Assembly: GCA_000168995.1 (NCBI GenBank)
Contig: AAUX01000001.1
Span: 558,001-622,000, forward strand
DNA from: Methylophilales bacterium HTCC2181
GTDB taxonomy: Bacteria; Pseudomonadota; Gammaproteobacteria; Burkholderiales; Methylophilaceae
Reading direction: 5' to 3'
Length of the DNA stretch: 64,000 nucleotides
Notes under the pieces: generated by a model
What the model was told of the DNA's origin: nothing
Databases searched by the model: none
The model's input: only the letters and a program-made list of their open reading frames with translations
In this document: positions 11,131 to 53,834 of the stretch, piece by piece
How positions within the stretch are numbered: position 1 is the stretch's first letter
How the letters are laid out: the number at the start of each line of letters is the position of its first letter
Program-made: the position numbers and the translations under genes

Positions 11131-11207
11131 CGCGGGGTGGAGCAGTCTGGCAGCTCGTCGGGCTCATAACCCGAAGGTCACAGGTTCAAATCCTGTTCCC
11201 GCAACCA
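11131..11207 (+). tRNA. Initiator tRNA-fMet (CAT)
   Basis: A 77-nt tRNA with a CAT anticodon in CTCATAAC and encoded CCA. The first base C faces A at the end of the acceptor stem (CGCGGG...CCCGCA-ACCA), and the anticodon stem has three consecutive G-C pairs (GGG/CCC); both are the defining features of initiator tRNA. It lies between the rRNA promoters and boxA, so it should be transcribed as part of the rRNA leader. Confidence 0.96.
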
Positions 11208-11217
11208 ATATCGAAAC

Positions 11218-11230
11218 TGCTCTTTAACAA
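11218..11230 (+). promoter_or_regulatory. rrn leader boxA antitermination site
   Basis: TGCTCTTTAACAA matches the boxA consensus bound by NusB/NusE, which makes polymerase resistant to Rho on rRNA operons. It lies 11 nt after the initiator tRNA. Confidence 0.85.
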
Positions 11231-11233
11231 TTT

Positions 11234-11246
11234 AACAACTGATAAG
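11234..11246 (+). other. 16S precursor processing stem, 5' arm
   Basis: AACAACTGATAAG at 11234-11246 is perfectly complementary to CTTATCAGTTGTT at 13024-13036 after the 16S gene. The pairing continues toward 16S with some wobbles and mismatches. This is the expected RNase III processing stem of the 16S precursor. A separate small hairpin (CCCTTCTAAT / ATTAGAAGGG, 11411-11432) lies inside the loop just before mature 16S. Confidence 0.8.
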
Positions 11247-11451
11247 TGTGGGTGCTTATAGACGAGGTCAAAATTAAGTTTTGATTTATCAAGACTTAAG
11301 ACTCAAAATAAGTGCTTACGCAAAATTTGTAACAAGACCACACTGGTTATTTATAACCAGTTAACCTTGAGATGAATTTGAGTAAATAAAAGCACAAGCG
11401 ATACAAAAAACCCTTCTAATTTATTAGAAGGGTAAGTAAAAGTTAGAGATT

Positions 11452-12993
<1,542 letters not shown>

Positions 12994-13066
12994 CTAGAGA
13001 TCACCTCTCTATGAGCATTCACTCTTATCAGTTGTTGGTTAGCACAAAGATTAATTGGCCCTTTCA

Positions 13067-13143
13067 GGGTCTGTAGCTCAGCTGGTTAGAGCACCGTGTT
13101 GATAACGCGGGGGTCGTTGGTTCGAGCCCAACCAGACCCACCA
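13067..13143 (+). tRNA. tRNA-Ile (GAT)
   Basis: A 77-nt tRNA with anticodon GAT in GTTGATAACGC, an intact acceptor stem (GGGTCTG/CAGACCC) and encoded CCA. It occupies the usual place in the 16S-23S spacer. Confidence 0.97.
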
Positions 13144-13165
13144 AACATAACCTGTTTAGTTCCTA

Positions 13166-13241
13166 GGGGGATTAGCTCAGCTGGGAGAGCACCTGCTTTG
13201 CAAGCAGGGGGTCGTCGGTTCGATCCCGTCATCCTCCACCA
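13166..13241 (+). tRNA. tRNA-Ala (TGC)
   Basis: A 76-nt tRNA with anticodon TGC in CTTTGCAAG and encoded CCA. The acceptor stem GGGGGAT/ATCCTCC contains the G3-U70 wobble, the main alanine identity element. It is the second tRNA of the 16S-23S spacer. Confidence 0.97.
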
Positions 13242-13313
13242 ATTCTTTGAATATAGAAGTAAGCCTCAAATGTTGTTTTTTCAATATTTGAGACTGGCTT
13301 TTATTAGCTAGTA

Positions 13314-13326
13314 TGTTCTTTAACAA
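13314..13326 (+). promoter_or_regulatory. Spacer boxA before 23S
   Basis: TGTTCTTTAACAA is a near-copy of the leader boxA and lies between tRNA-Ala and 23S, where many rRNA operons carry a second antitermination site. Confidence 0.75.
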
Positions 13327-13515
13327 TTTGGAAGAAGTAAAACGAAATCATAAGATTGTGATGAGATTATGATTTCATGGGTAGTGATTGTAATATCAAA
13401 ACTAAATCAACAAAAAGACTAAGAATTTTTAGTATTTATAGTTGTTTTAAGCAATGCTTTAGAAGAAACTATAACGATTGTCTCATGCAAGAAAACCGAG
13501 TTTAAAAGGGCTTAG

Positions 13516-13529
13516 GTTTTAAAGTTATA

Positions 13530-13537
<8 letters not shown>
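13516..13537 (+). other. 23S precursor processing stem, 5' arm
   Basis: Positions 13516-13537 pair with 16408-16429 over 22 bp with no mismatch and only two G-U wobbles. The stem brings the 23S ends together and is the expected RNase III substrate. Confidence 0.85.
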
Positions 13538-16416
<2,879 letters not shown>

Positions 16417-16538
16417 ATAATTTTGAAACTTAAAAATTGTGGTTGACACTAAAGCAAAACGCAATCAATACTAAATATTTTACTTCTTCTAATTTTGTTA
16501 AACTTTGAATTCAAGGTACTTTTGTACCTTAACCAGTT

Positions 16539-16656
16539 TGCTTGGCGGACATAGCGTGTTGGACCCACTCCTTCCCATCTCGAACAGGACAGTGAAACGA
16601 TACAGCGCCGATGATAGTGTAGTCTTTTCTATGCGAACGTAGGACACTGCCAAGCT
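16539..16656 (+). rRNA. rrf: 5S ribosomal RNA
   Basis: About 118 nt. The 5' TGCTTGGCGG pairs with the 3' CTGCCAAGC. The conserved ACCCACTCCTTCCCATCTCG and the CGAACAGGACAGTGAAACG loop are present. It is the last gene of the operon and is followed by a strong terminator. Confidence 0.93.
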
Positions 16657-16887: not shown

Positions 16888-18639
16888 ATGTTAATGAACA
16901 ATAAATTTTGGAAGCTAATATCTGCACTAATTTCGATTACGCTTACCGTTTTTTTAACGCATCCCTTAGCTGTCTTTGCTATTGACGCTGGCACAGAGTT
17001 AAGGCAAATTGAGTCGCAGCAGAAAAAAATTCAACCGCGAAGGTTGCCACCAAAGATAGAAGAACAGGAAAGCCCCGATAGTGACCAGTCTAGCGGGGGG
17101 CAGGTTGAGTTTTTTGTAAAAGGTATACTGGTATCAGGAAACACATTAATTGAATCTGATGCAATTAATGAACTTTTTGCTTCACTCGTTGGTACCAATG
17201 TCAGCATTGATGAATTGAAGTTAGCTATGGATGAGGTGACACTTTTATATCAGGCTAAAGGGTATGTTGGCCGAGCCACCTTACCAAAACAAGATATAAC
17301 GGACGGTATAATTACGATTGAAATTCAAGAAGGTATCTTTGGTGGGGCAGAATTACTCATTGACCCGGATATGGAATATCTTGTTGATCCGGTTATTGTT
17401 AAAAATTATATTGAGTTCTTTCTTTCTCCTGGACAGCCAGTCGATACCAACAAATTAGAGCGAGGAATTTTAATAGCCAGTGACCTGCCAGGCATTTTAG
17501 TAAACCAATCCTTGCAAGCAGGAAAAAATCCCGGCGAAACCGATGCCGGAGTAAGAATGATCAATGAGCCATGGCTGCTCGGTAGTTTAACTAATGATAA
17601 TTTTGGCTCTAAACCGACTGGATACAACCGAACGCTGGTTAATGGAAGTTTATTAAGTCCACGAGGGTTTGGAGACCGAATGGATGTAGCAGTACTTAAG
17701 ACTGAAGGTATCAACTATGGCAGTCTAGCTTACGCAATACCTTACGGGTATTCAGGACTTAACCTGAGCTTGAATGCTAGCTTGATGAGCTATGAAGTTC
17801 CTAATGGTGAAGCCTCCACTTTAGAGCTGTCAGGACTTTCCAGAAACGTTGCAATCAGTGCCACCTACCCATTAATTAGAAGTCGCATTAATAATCTTAA
17901 CCTCACCTCATCAATTGGCATAAATCAGTACGTTAACAAATCTTCTTTTGGCACAGAAAGTGACTACCTCAATAAAACAATGAATATGGGGGCAAATTAT
18001 CTAGATTTGACTGATTGGTTGATGGGAGGTGAATTTTTTGGCTCCATCAATATAGCCTTAGGACATAATGATTACGGTAAAAGTCCGGTTACTTTTCAAA
18101 CTCAGAAGAGAAACGAAAATACTGACGGTGTCCAGGCAATTTTTTCGGGCAACGCGAATTTTACACAATTTTTTGAAGACGATCACTCAGCTGTGGCCCA
18201 GTTTTCAGGACAGTATGGTAATAAGAACCTAGACTCTGCGCAAAAGTTTTTTTTGGGGGGCGAGCAAGGTGTCCGTGCTTATCCAGCAAGTGAAGCCGGA
18301 GGTACACATGGCCTACTATTAAAGTTAGATTACCGTTATATTCTGACAAACAGTATGACAATTTCAACTTTTTATGATCACGGTTATGCTAAACAATATA
18401 AAACAGACTTTAATCCAGCTACAAACCAGCCATTAACTCTTGCTGGAAATAGCAATAGCATTTCATTGAAGGGCTATGGTTTTTCATTTGAATACTTAGG
18501 CCCAAGAAATACTACATTTAAGGCAACCTGGTCGGATCGAATAGGGAGCAATCCAAACAGAACCACTAACAATCTTGATAACAGTAATGCTGAAGCACCT
18601 GGACCAATGGTGTGGGTTTCAGGTGCAATAAACTTTTAA
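16888..18639 (+). CDS. Two-partner secretion outer-membrane transporter (TpsB/ShlB family)
   Basis: A 583-residue Omp85-superfamily pore expected to carry the large TpsA encoded downstream across the outer membrane. A long signal peptide covers about residues 1-31 (cleavage near LAVFA). A POTRA_2-type domain follows at about 72-150 (FFVKGILVSGNTLIES to GIITIEIQEGIFGG), then a second POTRA-like part and a 16-strand barrel from about 225. The L6 motif that should read VRGY is VRAY in GGEQGVRAYPASEAGG, a conservative variant. The chain ends in a typical barrel C-terminus (VWVSGAINF, final Phe). Two starts are close (16888 and 16894) and neither has a clear SD. It is closer to the ShlB/HMW1B branch than to BamA, because of size and POTRA number. 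Confidence 0.92.
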   Translation: MLMNNKFWKLISALISITLTVFLTHPLAVFAIDAGTELRQIESQQKKIQPRRLPPKIEEQESPDSDQSSGGQVEFFVKGILVSGNTLIESDAINELFASLVGTNVSIDELKLAMDEVTLLYQAKGYVGRATLPKQDITDGIITIEIQEGIFGGAELLIDPDMEYLVDPVIVKNYIEFFLSPGQPVDTNKLERGILIASDLPGILVNQSLQAGKNPGETDAGVRMINEPWLLGSLTNDNFGSKPTGYNRTLVNGSLLSPRGFGDRMDVAVLKTEGINYGSLAYAIPYGYSGLNLSLNASLMSYEVPNGEASTLELSGLSRNVAISATYPLIRSRINNLNLTSSIGINQYVNKSSFGTESDYLNKTMNMGANYLDLTDWLMGGEFFGSINIALGHNDYGKSPVTFQTQKRNENTDGVQAIFSGNANFTQFFEDDHSAVAQFSGQYGNKNLDSAQKFFLGGEQGVRAYPASEAGGTHGLLLKLDYRYILTNSMTISTFYDHGYAKQYKTDFNPATNQPLTLAGNSNSISLKGYGFSFEYLGPRNTTFKATWSDRIGSNPNRTTNNLDNSNAEAPGPMVWVSGAINF

Positions 18640-18651
18640 TTATGATATCAG

Positions 18652-18672
18652 TTTACTTAAGTAAATTTTTAT
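18652..18672 (+). terminator. AT-rich palindrome after tpsB, possible weak terminator
   Basis: TTTACTTAAGTAAA is a perfect 14-bp palindrome followed by TTTTTATT, 12 bp after the tpsB stop. The stem is AT-only apart from one C-G pair on each side, so termination would be inefficient; it could equally be a protein-binding site. Confidence 0.35.
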
Positions 18673-18750
18673 TGTGCTCACCCCTTCATCATGTCAAATC
18701 TGACTATGTTTAAAAAAATTATCAGAGCTTAATAAACTAATATTTTCCAG

Positions 18751-19515
18751 AAAAATAAATGGCACCTCGAGACATAAAAAATTATTTCAACCAAGCGTAA
18801 AAAAATCTCCAGTTTGGTAATTTTATTTCCAAAAAAAATAGAAAAAATGAGGTAAGAATTTATGAACATTTTCTAGAGAATTTGACAAAATCTTTCATGA
18901 TAAATTTTCTTTAAAAAATAAATGGCACCTCGAGACATAAAAAATTATTTCAACCAAGCGTAAAAAAATCTCCAGTTTGGTAATTTTATTTCCAAAAAAA
19001 ATAGAAAAAATGAGGTAAGAATTTATGAACATTTTCTAGAGAATTTGACAAAATCTTTCATGATAAATTTTCTTTAAAAAATAAATGGCACCTCGAGACA
19101 TAAAAAATTATTTCAACCAAGCGTAAAAAAATCTCCAGTTTGGTAATTTTATTTCCAAAAAAAATAGAAAAAATGAGGTAAGAATTTATGAACATTTTCT
19201 AGAGAATTTGACAAAATCTTTCATGATAAATTTTCTTTAAAAAATAAATGGCACCTCGAGACATAAAAAATTATTTCAACCAAGCGTAAAAAAATCTCCA
19301 GTTTGGTAATTTTATTTCCAAAAAAAATAGAAAAAATGAGGTAAGAATTTATGAACATTTTCTAGAGAATTTGACAAAATCTTTCATGATAAATTTTCTT
19401 TAAAAAATAAATGGCACCTCGAGACATAAAAAATTATTTCAACCAAGCGTAAAAAATCTCCAGTCTGGTAATTTTATTTTCAAAAAAAATAGAAAAAATA
19501 GAGTGAAGAATTTAT
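18751..19515 (+). repeat. 163-bp tandem repeat array (about 4.7 copies) between tpsB and tpsA
   Basis: The landmark GGCACCTCGAGACAT recurs at 18761, 18924, 19087, 19250 and 19413, exactly 163 bp apart. Copies 1 to 4 look identical by eye. Copy 5 has lost one A of a homopolymer, carries a few substitutions and diverges after 19515. Each full unit contains GAGGTAAGAATTT followed by ATG-AAC-ATT-TTC-TAG, a four-codon mini-ORF with a Shine-Dalgarno-like leader (ATGs at 18862, 19025, 19188 and 19351). The unit is not a multiple of 3 and no frame stays open. Very low divergence means recent amplification or continuing homogenisation. It lies in the presumed promoter/leader zone of tpsA, so copy number could affect expression. 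Confidence 0.97.
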
Positions 19516-19833
19516 GAGATCTTTATGCTTATATTTTAGGCAATAATTTTTATTTCAAAAAAATTTCGCTACATTACAATATTGATTTACAATATTTTTT
19601 CCATACAAAATATTGTTTTTATTAACTTAATTTTTTCCCATTTTAAATTCTTTTTCTTTTTTTAGTATTTTTTTTCTTGCAAAATTTTCTAGTGGCTCTT
19701 GTGGATAAATATTTTTATAATTTTTTTAGTTGCGTTGTTAATTGAGCTCTCCATCAAGATAATTTATATTTTTTTTCTTCTTGATCCTTTAACTTTTAAG
19801 TGGTTCTTTTTATCTAATTTGTTATAATAAGAA
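19516..19833 (+). promoter_or_regulatory. T-rich untranslated zone upstream of tpsA
   Basis: About 320 bp of extremely AT-rich DNA with long T-runs on the coding strand and no gene. TATAAT-like hexamers occur (for example at 19715 and 19822) but none has a convincing -35 partner at the right distance. A U-rich 5' leader of this kind would be unstructured and could bind Hfq or ribosomal protein S1. The tpsA GTG has only AAGAAG directly abutting it, so initiation may rely on this leader rather than on a standard SD. Confidence 0.4.
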
Positions 19834-22800
19834 GTGAATATTTTTTATAAATTTTTTTGTTTTTTTATGCTTTCCCTCCCAGGGATTAGTTTTGCTGATC
19901 CCGCTCCTAATCAGCTTCCACAGGGATCTTCTGTTGTAAGTGGTTCTGCGACTGTTGGTGTTGATAACCTTAACCCCTCCCAATTAAATGTTGTTCAATC
20001 CTCCCCAAGAGCGATCATTAACTGGCAGTCCTTTGACGTGGGGCAGCAAGCTATTGTTCAGTTTAATCAACCTGATTCGGCATCGGTGACCCTCAATAAG
20101 ATCAACAGCAATAACCCCAGTCAAATTCATGGACAGATAAGAGCTAATGGACAGGTTATTCTTCAAAATGCCGCTGGCGTATATTTTGGAAAAAATTCAA
20201 TCATTGACGTTGGTGCTATTACCGCTACTACTCATAGCGTGAACCAAGATAAGTTTATGCAGGGTTCTCTTGAGTTTAATCGGAATGGTTCTCTAGGAAG
20301 CGTTGTTAACGATGGAGAGATAAGGGCATCCTTGAATGGGTATGTCGCTTTGTTGGCCCCTGAGGTCAGAAATCATGGTTTAGTTGTTGCCCAAATGGGT
20401 TCTGTTGTGATGGCCTCAGGAGAAAAAATTACCTTAAATTTTAATGCTAACAACCATTTATCAAGCATTACTACAACACCATCCACAGTCGCAACTTTAG
20501 TAGAAAATAAACATGCTGTGCGCGCACATGGGGGAACCATCATTCTTTCCGCTAAAGCCATGAGTCACCTGGTATCGGGCGTGATCAATCAGACGGGTAC
20601 TTTAGATGTCGGAGGGGATGCCTTTAATGTAGTAAAAGTGGGCGGCCGGGTATTCCTGGGCGGCGACCAGGTTACGCTGGCACAAAATTCCGTCATCAAT
20701 GCGGCTGCTCCCGAAGCGGGCGGCGAGGTAACCATTGAGGCTGACCAGTTGATGGCGGATGCGACCAGTGTGATTGACGTTTCGGCATCCCAACAAGGTA
20801 ACGGCGGCGCCATTCATATCGCAGCAGTAGATGCTGAGTTAAATGGAACAATGCTTGCTAATGGTGGAGCTATATCAGGAGACGGCGGTCAGATTAACAT
20901 CGCTTCCGTTAACTTGGTGACGGCAGAATCTACAACGCTTCAAGCGGGATCTCAAACAGAAATGGGTGCTCCAGGGCATATTACCATTGAGACCAATACA
21001 GGAGAGACCAGCGCCCAGGTAGTTAACGTGATAAACCAATCGATAGCATCCGCCAACGTTACCGTAGTGACTGATCATGCCTTCAATTTTGATGCGACCT
21101 CACTGATTAATAAAACCTCTTCACCGCAGACAACGCTTACGATTAATGCCGCGGAAGAGATTAATATATCAGGCCAAATTATGAGCGATGCTTTGTCACC
21201 GCTCAATTTATCATTAATTAGTACCCAAACGATTAACTTTGCTGCAACATCTAATACCCAAGTAGCTTACCTAGAAGCCGCAGCACCAGAAATAAATGCC
21301 TTAGGCAATATTTGGACCTACGGCGGGCAAAGTTCGCATATGCCATTCATGCAAATAACAGCTTCACGTTTACTTATATCCAGAACACTGAGGTCGGGGT
21401 CGCGGACTAATCGTGGATCTGTTTCCTTAAGTGCTAACCGTTCGGTAGAGATTACTTCTACCGCATCGATTATTGCTAGCGGTAACGAGGGGGGCTTGGT
21501 CGACATTATTTCCGAGGATGGTTTAGTGAGCATTGCGGGCATGATACAAACTAACGGAAGTTCTGGTCGGGGGGGAACGATTCTTGTTGAGAATGCAGAC
21601 GCTATTCATTTAGCACATGCGACCCTCCAGGCAAACGGCTCTGATGGCGGATCAATTATTTTGACAGCAACCAGTGAAGATGTTGCTATCAATAACTCCA
21701 CCGTGCAAACAAACGGTATGGCTGGTCGTGGAGGAACGGTTAGCATATCTGCCTACCGCCAAGTGTTATTTAAGAATGCGGCAATCGAATCCATAGGCCT
21801 TCTCCAAGGCGGTACTATTTTAATCGGTAACGACGTAAGAAATCACTCTCTCCCTTTTGCACAATTTACTCAGCTAGATACTTTATCTTCTATACAAGCC
21901 TACGCGCTCAGCGGAAATCATGGTGGCTTTATTGAAACCTCGGGTCAAACCATTTCGTTATTAGCGTCAATCAATGCGGGTAGGGGTGGTATGTGGCTCA
22001 TTGATCCGTTTGATCTTGTTATCGACTCAGCTATTGCGACGAATATTAATAGCGCATTGCAGGCCGGACAAAATGTAACTCTTACCACCGCATCTGAAAC
22101 TAACACCATCAATACCGAGCCAGCGACCACCACGACAGGAATACTAGGCCTCGGAAATATTACCCTCAATGCTCCCATCGAATCCAGTGGTGACGGCGAC
22201 CTTACCCTTACTGCGGCAAATAATATTTATATTAATGCTGCCATCACATTAAGCGGAACCGATAGCGGTGTGACATTGGTGGTACCGGATGAAGGTACTA
22301 TTTATTTAGGAGCCAACATCACCACTACAGGCAATCAATTGTATACAGGCGACGTCACGCTAAACGCATCACCGATCCTCAGTAGTGGTAATGCCAGTGT
22401 GACAATCACAGGTAATATTTCTGCCACCTCTGGCGTAGCAGCTTTTCTCGGTAACGGTTACTACCTCTTTAATGGAGTCCAATACCTTGCTGGAGCAAGC
22501 GCTGATGCATCGCAGCCGATAGGGGTCATCTATAACAGCGCAACTCAAGTCTACTCCTGGTTAGCGACCACATCTGTTGCTGAGGCATTGATGGTTGCCG
22601 GGGGTGGTGGTGGTGGTATGGATATGGGTGGCGGTGGCGGAGGTGGTGGTGTTATTGCGCAAAATGTAAGCCTTATTCCGGGATGGACTGAACTGACTGT
22701 TGGCGCAGGGGGAGCGGGAGGACCAGCCGGCTGTTCTTCCGGTCAAAACTGCAACCACCAATTTAACCTGCGTGCATCTGCCGGCGGTAACTCTACGCTC

Positions 22801-31761: not shown

Positions 31762-32526
31762 ATGTTGAATAAAATCAAAACCTATTTCAGACGCTTCGGT
31801 ATAAAAAATGCAATTATTGCGTCCTTACTTGTGCATTTAACCTTAATAACAGATATTTATATTATTAATTTTGACAAGGTAGAAAAAGAACAAGAATTGG
31901 TAGAGTTTGAGGCTATTTTACTTTCAAAAAATATTCCTGAACCCCCACCACCATCACCTGATCCTGAGCCGATACCTGAGCCTGAGCCGATACCTGAGCC
32001 TGAGCCGATACCTGAGCCTGAGCCGATACCTGAGCCTGAGCCGATACCTGAGCCTGAGCCGATACCTGAGCCTGAGCCGATACCTGAGCTACCTGTAGAG
32101 GATACAGTGCCGATCGAGGAAGAAAAACCGATAGCACCCGAACCAATAAAGCAAAAACAAACGCCGGTACCACCAGCCCCCGAACCTGTGTTAGTTCCAG
32201 AGACAGGGGAGGATGACTCACGAAATGCAGGCTTAATAGCGCTTGATGATTTTAGTCGTGAGTTAGCGCTCCATATTGCTAAATATAAAGAGTACCCCAG
32301 GATAGCTGCTCGACGTGGATGGCAGGGAGAAGTGGTGTTAGAGGTAAAATTGACGGGTAGGGGTAAGCTGATAAAAAAAAGAGTCCGACGCTCGAGTGGT
32401 TTTAAGGTATTAGACAATGAAGGTATGGAGATGATTGACAGAGCAGCACCGTTTCCACAACCACCTAACATTCTTGCTGAACGAACGTTTACAATTTTAG
32501 TGCCAATTAAATTTACATTACTTTAA
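31762..32526 (+). CDS. tonB: TonB-family energy transducer
   Basis: A 254-residue periplasm-spanning protein that passes the proton-motive force from ExbB-ExbD to outer-membrane receptors. One membrane segment covers about 15-36 and carries the S-x3-H pair (S21 and H25 in SLLVH) needed for contact with ExbB/D. The periplasmic linker is Pro/Glu-rich: seven perfect PEPIPE units at about 68-109, then a PVPPAPEPVLVPETG stretch. The TonB C-terminal domain is at about 170-254 (YPRIAARRGWQGEVVLEV to FTILVPIKFTLL). It starts 30 bp after tpsA with no terminator between, and has no strong SD. exbB follows 24 bp later. A specific receptor partner is not obvious in this window. Confidence 0.92.
   Translation: MLNKIKTYFRRFGIKNAIIASLLVHLTLITDIYIINFDKVEKEQELVEFEAILLSKNIPEPPPPSPDPEPIPEPEPIPEPEPIPEPEPIPEPEPIPEPEPIPEPEPIPELPVEDTVPIEEEKPIAPEPIKQKQTPVPPAPEPVLVPETGEDDSRNAGLIALDDFSRELALHIAKYKEYPRIAARRGWQGEVVLEVKLTGRGKLIKKRVRRSSGFKVLDNEGMEMIDRAAPFPQPPNILAERTFTILVPIKFTLL
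31963..32088 (+). repeat. 18-bp minisatellite in tonB, seven perfect copies
   Basis: The unit CCTGAGCCGATACCTGAG (Pro-Glu-Pro-Ile-Pro-Glu) is repeated seven times without a change. Slippage would lengthen or shorten the rigid periplasmic linker in steps of six residues without breaking the frame. Confidence 0.97.
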
Positions 32527-51843: not shown

Positions 51844-52725
51844 CTATTCAGAGGTGATGTTGACAGAAAAAGGGCCGCTACCAAAACCATGAATGGTATA
51901 TACACCACCAACCAAACTAGCTATATCTGGCTGCATTGCTTGGTTAACAGAGAATTGTACATCAATGGCTTTGGTATCGTCGCTTATAGTGAGGGGCGTG
52001 GTTCTTGTTAGTATCGCAAAAATGTTAGTTCCTCCAGCCACCCCAGAGGCAGTTGCAAGTGTTCCGTCTGCATTCGTAATATAAGCATTCATGGTCCCGT
52101 CATTAACTGGTATATCATCAGTAATTGAATACATGTTGGGTGGCTCATTCAACTCGTCAAGAATCTCTATGAATTCTCTTGGTGTTCCTGGGGTATTGCT
52201 ACAGCTTACACCGCCAGGTGCTACGAAAGAAACCGAACTATATCTAGTACCGGTCTCTGACCAGCAGTACCTTCCAGCCTCTGCTTCCAAGTCGCTCATG
52301 ACACCCTCAGTAGTGAAGTCCACCAAGGCGGTTAGGCCTAAACTATTGGATAAAGATATATAAGAAAAACCATAACTACCCGTAGGTAAATCTATGCTCT
52401 TATCCAAACTTAGGCTAGAGCCAACGGCTATATTAACCGTTTGACCAGCAGCATTAGTAAAAATAGCTGTGCAGCTTGATGTATCAGCAGCGGCTACACC
52501 GGGTGCTGCCGGCAATTCAGTACAGACCCCAATCTCATAAATCGTTAGCTTGTAAGAGGCTGGGGCTATTGCGCAATCTTCAATAAGGTTAATGGCGTTA
52601 TTATTGTAATTGATAACCTTGTCACTGGTTTCGTAAACACCGCAGTTACCGACCGCGTGAACCTTTGAGCTCCAAATAAGGCTAACTAATGTTAGCAATA
52701 ACAAATGTCTTATATTAAATTCCAC
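51844..52725 (-). CDS. Secreted protein of unknown function, partner of the barrel gene
   Basis: A 293-residue protein I cannot assign. A signal peptide covers about 1-24 (LLLLTLVSLIWSSKVHA). The mature part is rich in T, S, G and A and predicted mainly beta, with five to six cysteines (NCGVYE, EDCAIA, GVCTEL, SSCTAIF, YCWSE, VSCSN) that could form disulfides in the periplasm or outside. The start overlaps the end of the inverse-autotransporter gene by 11 bp, so the two are translationally coupled. It has no known passenger domain such as Ig-like or lectin repeats. It may be a separated passenger or a periplasmic accessory; this is inference from coupling and export alone. Confidence 0.75.
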   Translation of the reverse strand: MEFNIRHLLLLTLVSLIWSSKVHAVGNCGVYETSDKVINYNNNAINLIEDCAIAPASYKLTIYEIGVCTELPAAPGVAAADTSSCTAIFTNAAGQTVNIAVGSSLSLDKSIDLPTGSYGFSYISLSNSLGLTALVDFTTEGVMSDLEAEAGRYCWSETGTRYSSVSFVAPGGVSCSNTPGTPREFIEILDELNEPPNMYSITDDIPVNDGTMNAYITNADGTLATASGVAGGTNIFAILTRTTPLTISDDTKAIDVQFSVNQAMQPDIASLVGGVYTIHGFGSGPFSVNITSE

Positions 52726-53710
52726 TGACTTTCACTCCTAAAGATTTAATCTGCTTCACAATATTATTCGTCCGTCTAACTTTCTCATAACGGCGGTCTT
52801 CCATGCTCTCTAGCTTGTATGCATCCTTGCTGATCCATTGATGGTTATAGCGTGGTTTATCGGCAAACAGTTGGGTGACGTTGTAAAAAATGTTGATGTA
52901 GTTCTCGTCGGTACCCGAAGAGTCCGAGAAGAAGGTTCTTCCTGCCTGGATTTCTAGTCCTGTGATACCTGGGATATAAGCTCTTAGCTGTAAGTCATTA
53001 CCCTTAATATCCTTCGAGCCACTAATCTCACTGTCCCACTGAAAGTTCTTCACAAACACGGTCGCCCAGTTCATGTAAGGTAAAGGGACACCGGCTTCGA
53101 TGTCATAGCCATCGAGTGCGCGTTCTTCCAAACCGTTTTTACCGGTCTTCCACTTGGTGGTCGCCCAGTACTTGTTCGCATTGATTTCCCATACCGTCGT
53201 CCGTGCCTCAAGTCCGATGCTGGTCCGTCCGTGGTCGTACGGAAACTCATGATCATAAAAAGCATTGATACCGGTAAGCAGCATTTTGTTATCCGACAAC
53301 TTACGGTAGCCTAAACCGAGGTTAAGCGTTGTACGGTTGTCTTCGTAAAACACACTGCCTTGCGTGAAGTAGGTATTAAAAATATCGTCGGGGTCAGATA
53401 AGGGTGCTACCACCAACAAGCCACCGGAGGGTTTACTGCCACCTTGGGCACCGAAGTTCAGCTCTACCGTCGGAAAGTACTGTTCGAGGAAGGACTTTGT
53501 CACTCCCACTCCTTTTTCTACTACCCCATCAATAGCCGTGTTTTTTAAGGCTTCCACATCACCGGCAAGCAGCATCGTCGATAGATCCATGATTTCGGCT
53601 TTATCTTGAGCATCCTGCATCTCTAAGGCAGACTTTAGGGCATCAGCTTGAGTGAGGGATACCGCCACGATGAGAGGGGCGATGAGGAGAATTTTTTGTT
53701 TTTTATTCAT
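52715..53710 (-). CDS. Inverse-autotransporter-type beta-barrel protein without passenger
   Basis: A 331-residue outer-membrane protein. Signal peptide about 1-24 (KKQKILLIAPLIVAVSLTQADA). A short helical region is followed by the barrel of the intimin/invasin family: the start FPTVELNFG, LNLGLGYRKLSDNKMLLTGINAFYDHEF, GRTSIGLEART, YDIEAGVPLPYMNWATVFVKNF, IPGITGLEIQAG. In invasin-like proteins Ig-like domains come after the barrel; here the chain ends about 40 residues after the last strand in a basic tail (RRYEKVRRTNNIVKQIK). A separate secreted protein is encoded in an 11-bp overlap downstream. A heptanucleotide repeat lies about 70 bp upstream. The alternative is decay of a longer adhesin gene, but both reading frames are clean. 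Confidence 0.85.
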   Translation of the reverse strand: MNKKQKILLIAPLIVAVSLTQADALKSALEMQDAQDKAEIMDLSTMLLAGDVEALKNTAIDGVVEKGVGVTKSFLEQYFPTVELNFGAQGGSKPSGGLLVVAPLSDPDDIFNTYFTQGSVFYEDNRTTLNLGLGYRKLSDNKMLLTGINAFYDHEFPYDHGRTSIGLEARTTVWEINANKYWATTKWKTGKNGLEERALDGYDIEAGVPLPYMNWATVFVKNFQWDSEISGSKDIKGNDLQLRAYIPGITGLEIQAGRTFFSDSSGTDENYINIFYNVTQLFADKPRYNHQWISKDAYKLESMEDRRYEKVRRTNNIVKQIKSLGVKVSGI

Positions 53711-53779
53711 AGGGTTATAATTTATTTGTAAGTTAGTATTTCAGTTTTATACATAGTTTAACAAAAAAAATAAAGTTAT

Positions 53780-53834
53780 CAACCTTCAACCTTCAACCTT
53801 CAACCTTCAACCTTCAACCTTCAACCTTCAACTT
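53780..53834 (+). repeat. Heptanucleotide microsatellite (CAACCTT)n
   Basis: Seven perfect CAACCTT units at 53780-53828 plus a partial unit CAACTT. It lies in the 187-bp divergent region, about 70 bp before the barrel gene start and about 64 bp before the 53898 gene start. On the barrel's strand it falls just upstream of a TATAAA-like -10 region, so slippage by 7 bp could change promoter spacing. Confidence 0.97.

Follow-up and report, generated by a model that had tools for sequence, protein, structure and literature searches.

A 163-bp tandem array in the tpsB–tpsA gap of a small bacterial genome: intergenic spacer or adhesin rheostat?

Introduction

Repeat-driven switching of adhesin promoters has been described mainly in host-adapted pathogens, and both precedents discussed below come from such bacteria. 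Here we consider a tandem array of 163-bp units that lies between tpsB and tpsA, a two-partner secretion pair, in the small genome of a probably free-living, planktonic methylotroph. Does the number of units tune the amount of the giant protein encoded downstream, as a preliminary description of this DNA proposed, or is the array little more than a spacer? We analyzed a window of 64,000 nucleotides (G000:C3:558001-622000; 'the window' refers to this whole stretch) from a genome of 1.30 Mb, assembled in 3 contigs and 94.98% complete. Its probable placement in the Methylophilaceae, near 'Ca. Methylopumilus', has mild support from a hexulose-phosphate synthase match above cut-off, such as also occurs in 2 of 14 control genomes.

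Results

The array fills an exceptional gap in a two-partner secretion locus

Profile matches on both flanking genes bear out the placement of the array between tpsB and tpsA (Table 1). The TpsB protein, with its POTRA and ShlB domains, adjoins a TpsA protein with a TPS domain, which makes the host locus one of two-partner secretion. 'Giant adhesin' is a fair label for TpsA because of its domain content only. Upstream of the pair lie tRNA and rRNA genes (11131-16655), and downstream follow TonB-, ExbB- and ExbD-like genes. The TonB-like gene contains a coding repeat of its own, with 7.4 copies of an 18-bp unit at 31956-32089; proline/acidic linkers of that repeat type are ordinary in TonB. The gap between tpsB and tpsA is 1194 bp long and 23% GC, and the array takes up most of it. 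In a gene list of the window compiled by hand, this gap ranks as the longest of 46, the second longest being 505 bp and the median 25 bp.

Table 1. Coordinates of the features of the tps locus (positions within the window)
Feature	Position	Strand	Basis or remark
tpsB, outer-membrane transporter of the two-partner secretion pair, 583 aa	16888..18639	+	PF03865 ShlB 1.1e-17, PF08479 POTRA_2 3.8e-14
5′ flank of the array, without detectable relation to the unit	18640..18750	.	113/300 shuffles equal or better
Repeat copy 1 (163 bp)	18751..18913	+	TRF; same as copies 2-4
Shine–Dalgarno-like GAGGT followed by 4-codon mini-ORF (MNIF-stop), copy 1	18849..18876	+	recurs with the 163-bp period through copy 4; copy 5 differs here
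Repeat copy 2 (163 bp), reference unit	18914..19076	+	TRF, alignment
Repeat copy 3 (163 bp)	19077..19239	+	TRF, alignment
Repeat copy 4 (163 bp)	19240..19402	+	TRF, alignment
Repeat copy 5, partial and diverged edge copy, 115 of 163 bp	19403..19517	+	alignment
AT-rich DNA, array to predicted promoter	19518..19819	.	sequence
TGTTATAAT, predicted extended –10 of tpsA	19820..19828	+	sole exact TGNTATAAT in the window
tpsA, giant secreted protein, 3965 aa	19834..31731	+	TPS domain, PATR repeats, GLEYA/PA14, glycine-rich domains

Four identical copies end in a diverged edge copy

Tandem Repeats Finder (TRF) placed the array at 18751-19517, with a period of 163 bp, 4.7 copies, 99% matches and a score of 1490. 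Copies 1–4 are identical to one another at every base, and chance would not produce four such 163-base copies arranged head to tail. Copy 5 comprises the first 115 bases of the unit at 95% identity; in the alignment it has lost one base of an A-run, carries two substitutions and is altered in a small patch at GAGGT. Similarity to the unit ends sharply at 19517, as 237 of 300 shuffles did equally well or better when the last 60 bases of the unit were compared with 19515-19600. TRF and the copy alignment agree with the period and the near-zero divergence originally reported for the inner copies. The original count of five copies holds for four full, identical ones, the fifth being partial and diverged. 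With near-identical copies arranged head to tail in non-coding DNA, the array has a VNTR-like anatomy.

Assembly or polishing might have produced the copy number or made the copies perfectly identical. The array is read from one assembly, with the contig number and completeness given above, and its 767 bp exceed the span of a short read. Yet it lies internal to a 1.30-Mb contig, beside an intact frame of 3965 codons. Copy 5 keeps differences of its own, and explaining that copy takes at least two units anyway. We consider an artefact highly improbable.

A diverged edge next to identical inner copies is the pattern expected from recent amplification between two older direct repeats, and it backs the early suggestion of recent expansion or homogenization. 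In the scheme that we propose, the ancestor had two diverged direct repeats, block a (115 bp) and block a′, joined by a 48-bp linker b. These old repeats would then have grown into (a-b)x4-a′ through replication slippage or unequal recombination. Recent amplification or exchange would have kept the inner copies identical, while the edge copy retained the old differences. Arrays of this sort tend to gain or lose whole units. We lean toward viewing the array, known here from one genome, as a near-neutral, recently amplified and length-unstable intergenic spacer of VNTR-like character.

The unit itself showed no significant similarity to its flanks, to the start of tpsA or to the rRNA operon. The nearest cases came from the 3′ flank, where 31 of 300 (forward) and 29 of 300 (reverse) shuffles were as good. 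The mini-ORF and tpsA both begin with MNIF, so the unit was also considered as a decayed remnant of the start of a TpsA gene; this was rejected, with 122 of 300 shuffles as good.

The unit appears to be confined to this lineage

Within its own genome, the unit occurs at the array locus only, and the best other match to the whole gap spans 28 bp (E = 0.005). The preliminary description had suggested searching the unit against related genomes. Among 40 relatives, this search returned no copy beyond matches of at most 50 bp, which were present in 8 of the 40 at E ≤ 0.001 (scoring was limited to 20 candidates per genome). Seven of these short matches (L002-L008) look, by eye, like AT-rich stretches inside other genes. 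An exact 35-mer of the unit was absent from genome_contigs and viral_contigs, where near-identical genomes have possibly been omitted, and the whole gap had no match in the phages or plasmids searched. A mobile or palindromic, MITE-like dispersed element was also considered: the 115-bp block shows weak pairing between its two ends, but no second genomic locus was found. Within the genomes searched, the array appears to be specific to this lineage.

No report of this array appeared in searches of an open-access library. PMC10872708 does not mention 'two-partner', 'filamentous', 'giant', 'tandem' or 'adhesi-', and PMC6794327 does not mention 'adhesi-', 'giant' or 'hemolysin'. Intergenic arrays of long units are already known; one in a tpsB–tpsA gap was seen at no other locus that we examined.

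The examined tps loci of relatives have shorter gaps

TpsB matches were obtained in 5 of 31 genomes of the genus and in 81 of 187 genomes of the family, the own genome included in both counts; the other four of the genus show 27–35% identity. We compared 30 tpsB loci (the own and 29 others) out of a longer list of matches, and tblastn placed tpsA downstream of tpsB in 14 of them. Measured to the first possible start codon, the gap of the window is the longest among these 14. By the same measure, gaps of 825, 797 and 518 bp were found in G097, G096 and G170, and the rest are ≤258 bp. No tandem array was detected downstream of tpsB in the 27 of the 29 other loci that had sequence there, with up to 1250 bases tested per locus; tpsA lies on the opposite side of tpsB in some of them (two were seen), so this survey does not cover every tpsB–tpsA gap.

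Genomes G096 and G097 hold the best TpsB matches (38–40% identity), and in both a TetR-like gene occupies the tpsB–tpsA gap (L047:10742-11278 and L048:10654-11283). The two TetR-like proteins share 46% identity. Their TetR_N matches are weak (E = 0.0093 and 0.00087), both under the Pfam cut-off score. No relative of the G097 protein was detected in the 31 genomes of the genus, in a search run without a positive control, and tblastn with E up to 10 found no remnant of the gene in the gap of the window. Because the two closest tps loci carry a TetR-like gene at this place, regulation at the tpsB–tpsA gap is plausible. The presence of that gene there, and its apparent absence from the own genome, speak for a regulatory role of the array.

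Other repeats and one broken tpsB were seen at these loci. In G102, tpsB is broken into two frames beside tpsA (L055 160-1847, tpsB-sense strand), and the tpsB-like region ends 9 bp before tpsA. G096 has 2.3 copies of a 24-bp repeat directly upstream of tpsB (L047:8879-8934). Giant genes of congeners contain large repeats, namely 2.0 copies of 270 bp with 100% matches (L053 14164-14708) and 10 copies of 249 bp with 63% matches (L054 11642-14169), both on the tpsB-sense strand. A perfect 9-bp array of 14.9 copies in G161 (L031:1-134) was weighed as a second promoter repeat linked to tps genes and set aside, as it sits in an open frame. It is probably coding, forming the repeat-rich end of a neighbor gene, because the frame is open from the contig end to 393 and tpsB begins at 510.

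The candidate tpsA promoter lies downstream of the array

The idea that the unit serves as a promoter is unsupported. A simple –35/–10 scan returned no promoter-like site on the + strand of the array; its single hit there was on the – strand of copy 5. The scan is weak, having little power either way, because it found 5 sigma-70-like sites in 18600-19900 versus 7.6 in shuffles. The closest match to an extended –10 within the unit has 2 mismatches.

An exact extended –10, TGTTATAAT, is located 5 nt ahead of the GTG of tpsA. Counting both strands, exact TGNTATAAT occurs once in the 64 kb, with 4.1 occurrences expected by chance (sd 1.95). Shuffling of 19518-19833 gave one in 64 of 2000 trials, and shuffling of the whole gap in 90 of 2000. 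By eye, the GTG lacks a clear Shine–Dalgarno sequence. By textbook spacing, the predicted tpsA transcript would start at ∼19834-19837 and be nearly leaderless. The candidate lacks conservation: ahead of tpsA, sites in G096, G097 and G170 have 2–3 mismatches at best, and the best one in G165 has one mismatch and lies at least 72 nt upstream. This counts against the spacer reading, in which the candidate has a part.

If 19820-19828 is the tpsA promoter, the array falls outside any tpsA leader, and the spacing between promoter and gene is independent of copy number. In that case, a tpsA transcript starting well downstream of 19515, the very observation named at the outset as contrary to a tuning role, is the predicted outcome. 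Changes in array length would mostly affect how far tpsB lies from the tpsA promoter, because the likely promoter lies ∼300 bp downstream of the array, at the start codon; they would have little or no effect on tpsA itself. The 'promoter/leader zone' first proposed is weakened to this extent: the array does lie in an exceptional tpsB–tpsA gap, but no good promoter was found in the unit, and the candidate –10 lies 302 bp past the end of the array. That distance is also long for direct contacts with RNA polymerase, which argues against a regulatory array.

RNA folding of the unit gives mixed support for a transcribed leader

The coding capacity of the unit is slight. On the + strand the longest ORF has 13 codons, and 472 of 500 shuffles had one as long. 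This agrees with the original statement that nothing beyond a mini-ORF is encoded, which had left unmentioned a 45-codon ORF on the – strand; it occurs three times within the array and was equaled in 99 of 500 shuffled units. The mini-ORF is preceded by a Shine–Dalgarno-like element. A GAGG..ATG arrangement arose in just 37 of 2000 shuffled units, whereas any of several Shine–Dalgarno cores with ATG or GTG arose in 228 of 2000.

These features raise the possibility that tpsB and tpsA form an operon and that the array is a transcribed intercistronic leader, in which hairpins of the unit mask the Shine–Dalgarno element and the mini-ORF, so that the array would act as a series of attenuator-like or ribosome-decoy elements. 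For the + strand, the RNA fold of the 115-bp block has a z of –2.74 (1 of 300 shuffles equal; –2.33 for its 109-nt core), versus –0.80 for the – strand, and ACCUC pairs with the GAGGU ahead of the 4-codon mini-ORF. The whole 163-nt unit, however, has a z of just –1.05. In copy 5 the GAGGT core and the RNA fold are lost (z –1.47; core –0.92). Because this copy alters both the Shine–Dalgarno side and the inner stem, no conservation of the fold is seen. In three congeners, tpsB and tpsA are 63, 16 and 3 bp apart (to the first possible start), distances that suggest an operon there, and no terminator-like site was found between tpsB and the array. Against a leader stand the separate tpsA promoter predicted downstream and the separate gene in the gap of the two closest relatives. 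Overall, we judge a leader function very unlikely.

DNA phasing is pronounced and curvature largely compositional

The alternative that weighs most is a copy-number rheostat, because of the analogy with hmw1A (PMC8262952) and sabA (PMC4081817), two adhesin genes that offer repeat precedents. The array would then be a cis-regulatory element upstream of the tpsA promoter, with gain or loss of 163-bp units tuning the amount of the giant adhesin. Phased A-tracts, protein-binding sites or the distance from tpsB transcription could each provide the route.

We found some evidence for the first of these. AA/TT phasing in the unit, with a period of 11.4 bp, was stronger than in all 200 shuffles. Modeled curvature places the array high within the window, its mean reaching percentile 98.0 with one span length and 96.6 with another. 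But 12 and 22 of 200 shuffled units were as curved at these span lengths, so that in our wedge-angle model the curvature seems largely due to composition. Because several features of the unit were tested, a striking p-value or two would be expected from chance alone.

Protein-binding sites fared less well. Each full unit has one match per strand, with two mismatches, to TCGATAAATT, which we take to be the motif for H-NS silencing. Such sites (≤2 mismatches) are enriched throughout the window, at 144 versus 101.9 expected (0 of 100 shuffles had as many). No H-NS domain (PF00816) was detected across the 31 genomes searched in the genus, 14 of them ≥90% complete; the control search recovered that of E. 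coli. H-NS silencing at the unit was rejected on these two grounds. Nor does the unit contain an exact match to the IHF consensus. Given these data, the rheostat seems rather unlikely.

A second intergenic array lies upstream of another surface-protein gene

TRF also identified a perfect array of 7.7 copies of TCAACCT at 53779-53832. It precedes, by 68 bp, the ATG of an inverse-autotransporter beta-domain gene (52715-53710, – strand; PF11924, 4.9e-35). An exact 21-mer of this array was absent from all 30 other genomes of the genus.

Discussion

Our analysis favors, with modest confidence, the reading of the 163-bp array as a near-neutral spacer that arose by recent amplification; we infer the sequence of amplification events, the promoter, the near absence of a tpsA leader and the slight influence on tpsA. 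Several observations fit this reading poorly. A compact genome is a surprising place for 767 bp of neutral array, which selection would be expected to remove. The AA/TT phasing of the unit and the fold of the 115-bp block on the + strand only also count against it, and the window holds a second intergenic array that is likewise upstream of an outer-membrane gene. If the array is neutral, which we consider the likelier case, it is a possible length marker of strains and offers a test of how far non-coding repeats are tolerated in a compact genome.

Were the rheostat real, repeat-based control of adhesins would extend to small-genome, probably free-living planktonic bacteria with few regulators. 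In its full form, recombination would drive the amount of a giant two-partner adhesin in 163-bp steps, in a small-genome and probably free-living planktonic methylotroph, at the site where the loci of its two closest relatives have a TetR-like gene. This seems distinctly unlikely. If it were true, the 163-bp array and the 7-bp array 34 kb away would make a pair of repeat-based contingency loci, each serving a surface protein, within one region.

How does the array compare with known repeat systems? Like bacterial intergenic VNTRs, it consists of near-identical intergenic copies arranged head to tail, here known from one genome. At sabA of Helicobacter pylori, a T-tract acts as a rheostat via DNA shape and shifts the alignment of UP-like elements and the core promoter (PMC4081817). 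The present array shares with it an A/T-rich intergenic repeat tract by an adhesin gene, where DNA-shape effects are conceivable; the sabA tract is of a single nucleotide, whereas the array here has a long unit.

The hmw1A gene is presumably a TpsA gene, of the two-partner adhesin class. In Haemophilus influenzae, hmw1A has 7-bp promoter repeats, more copies of which lower expression; strains and constructs carry 13–24 copies, which overlap the promoters and lie within the leader of the P2 transcript (PMC8262952). Here, too, tandem repeats are found upstream of a TpsA adhesin gene. Yet the unit is 163 bp rather than 7 bp, and the array sits in the tpsB–tpsA gap ∼300 bp above the predicted promoter, in contrast to the promoter-overlapping repeats described for HMW1A. 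The 7-bp array of the window looks more like a switch of the HMW1A type than the 163-bp array does, and would be the better candidate for one.
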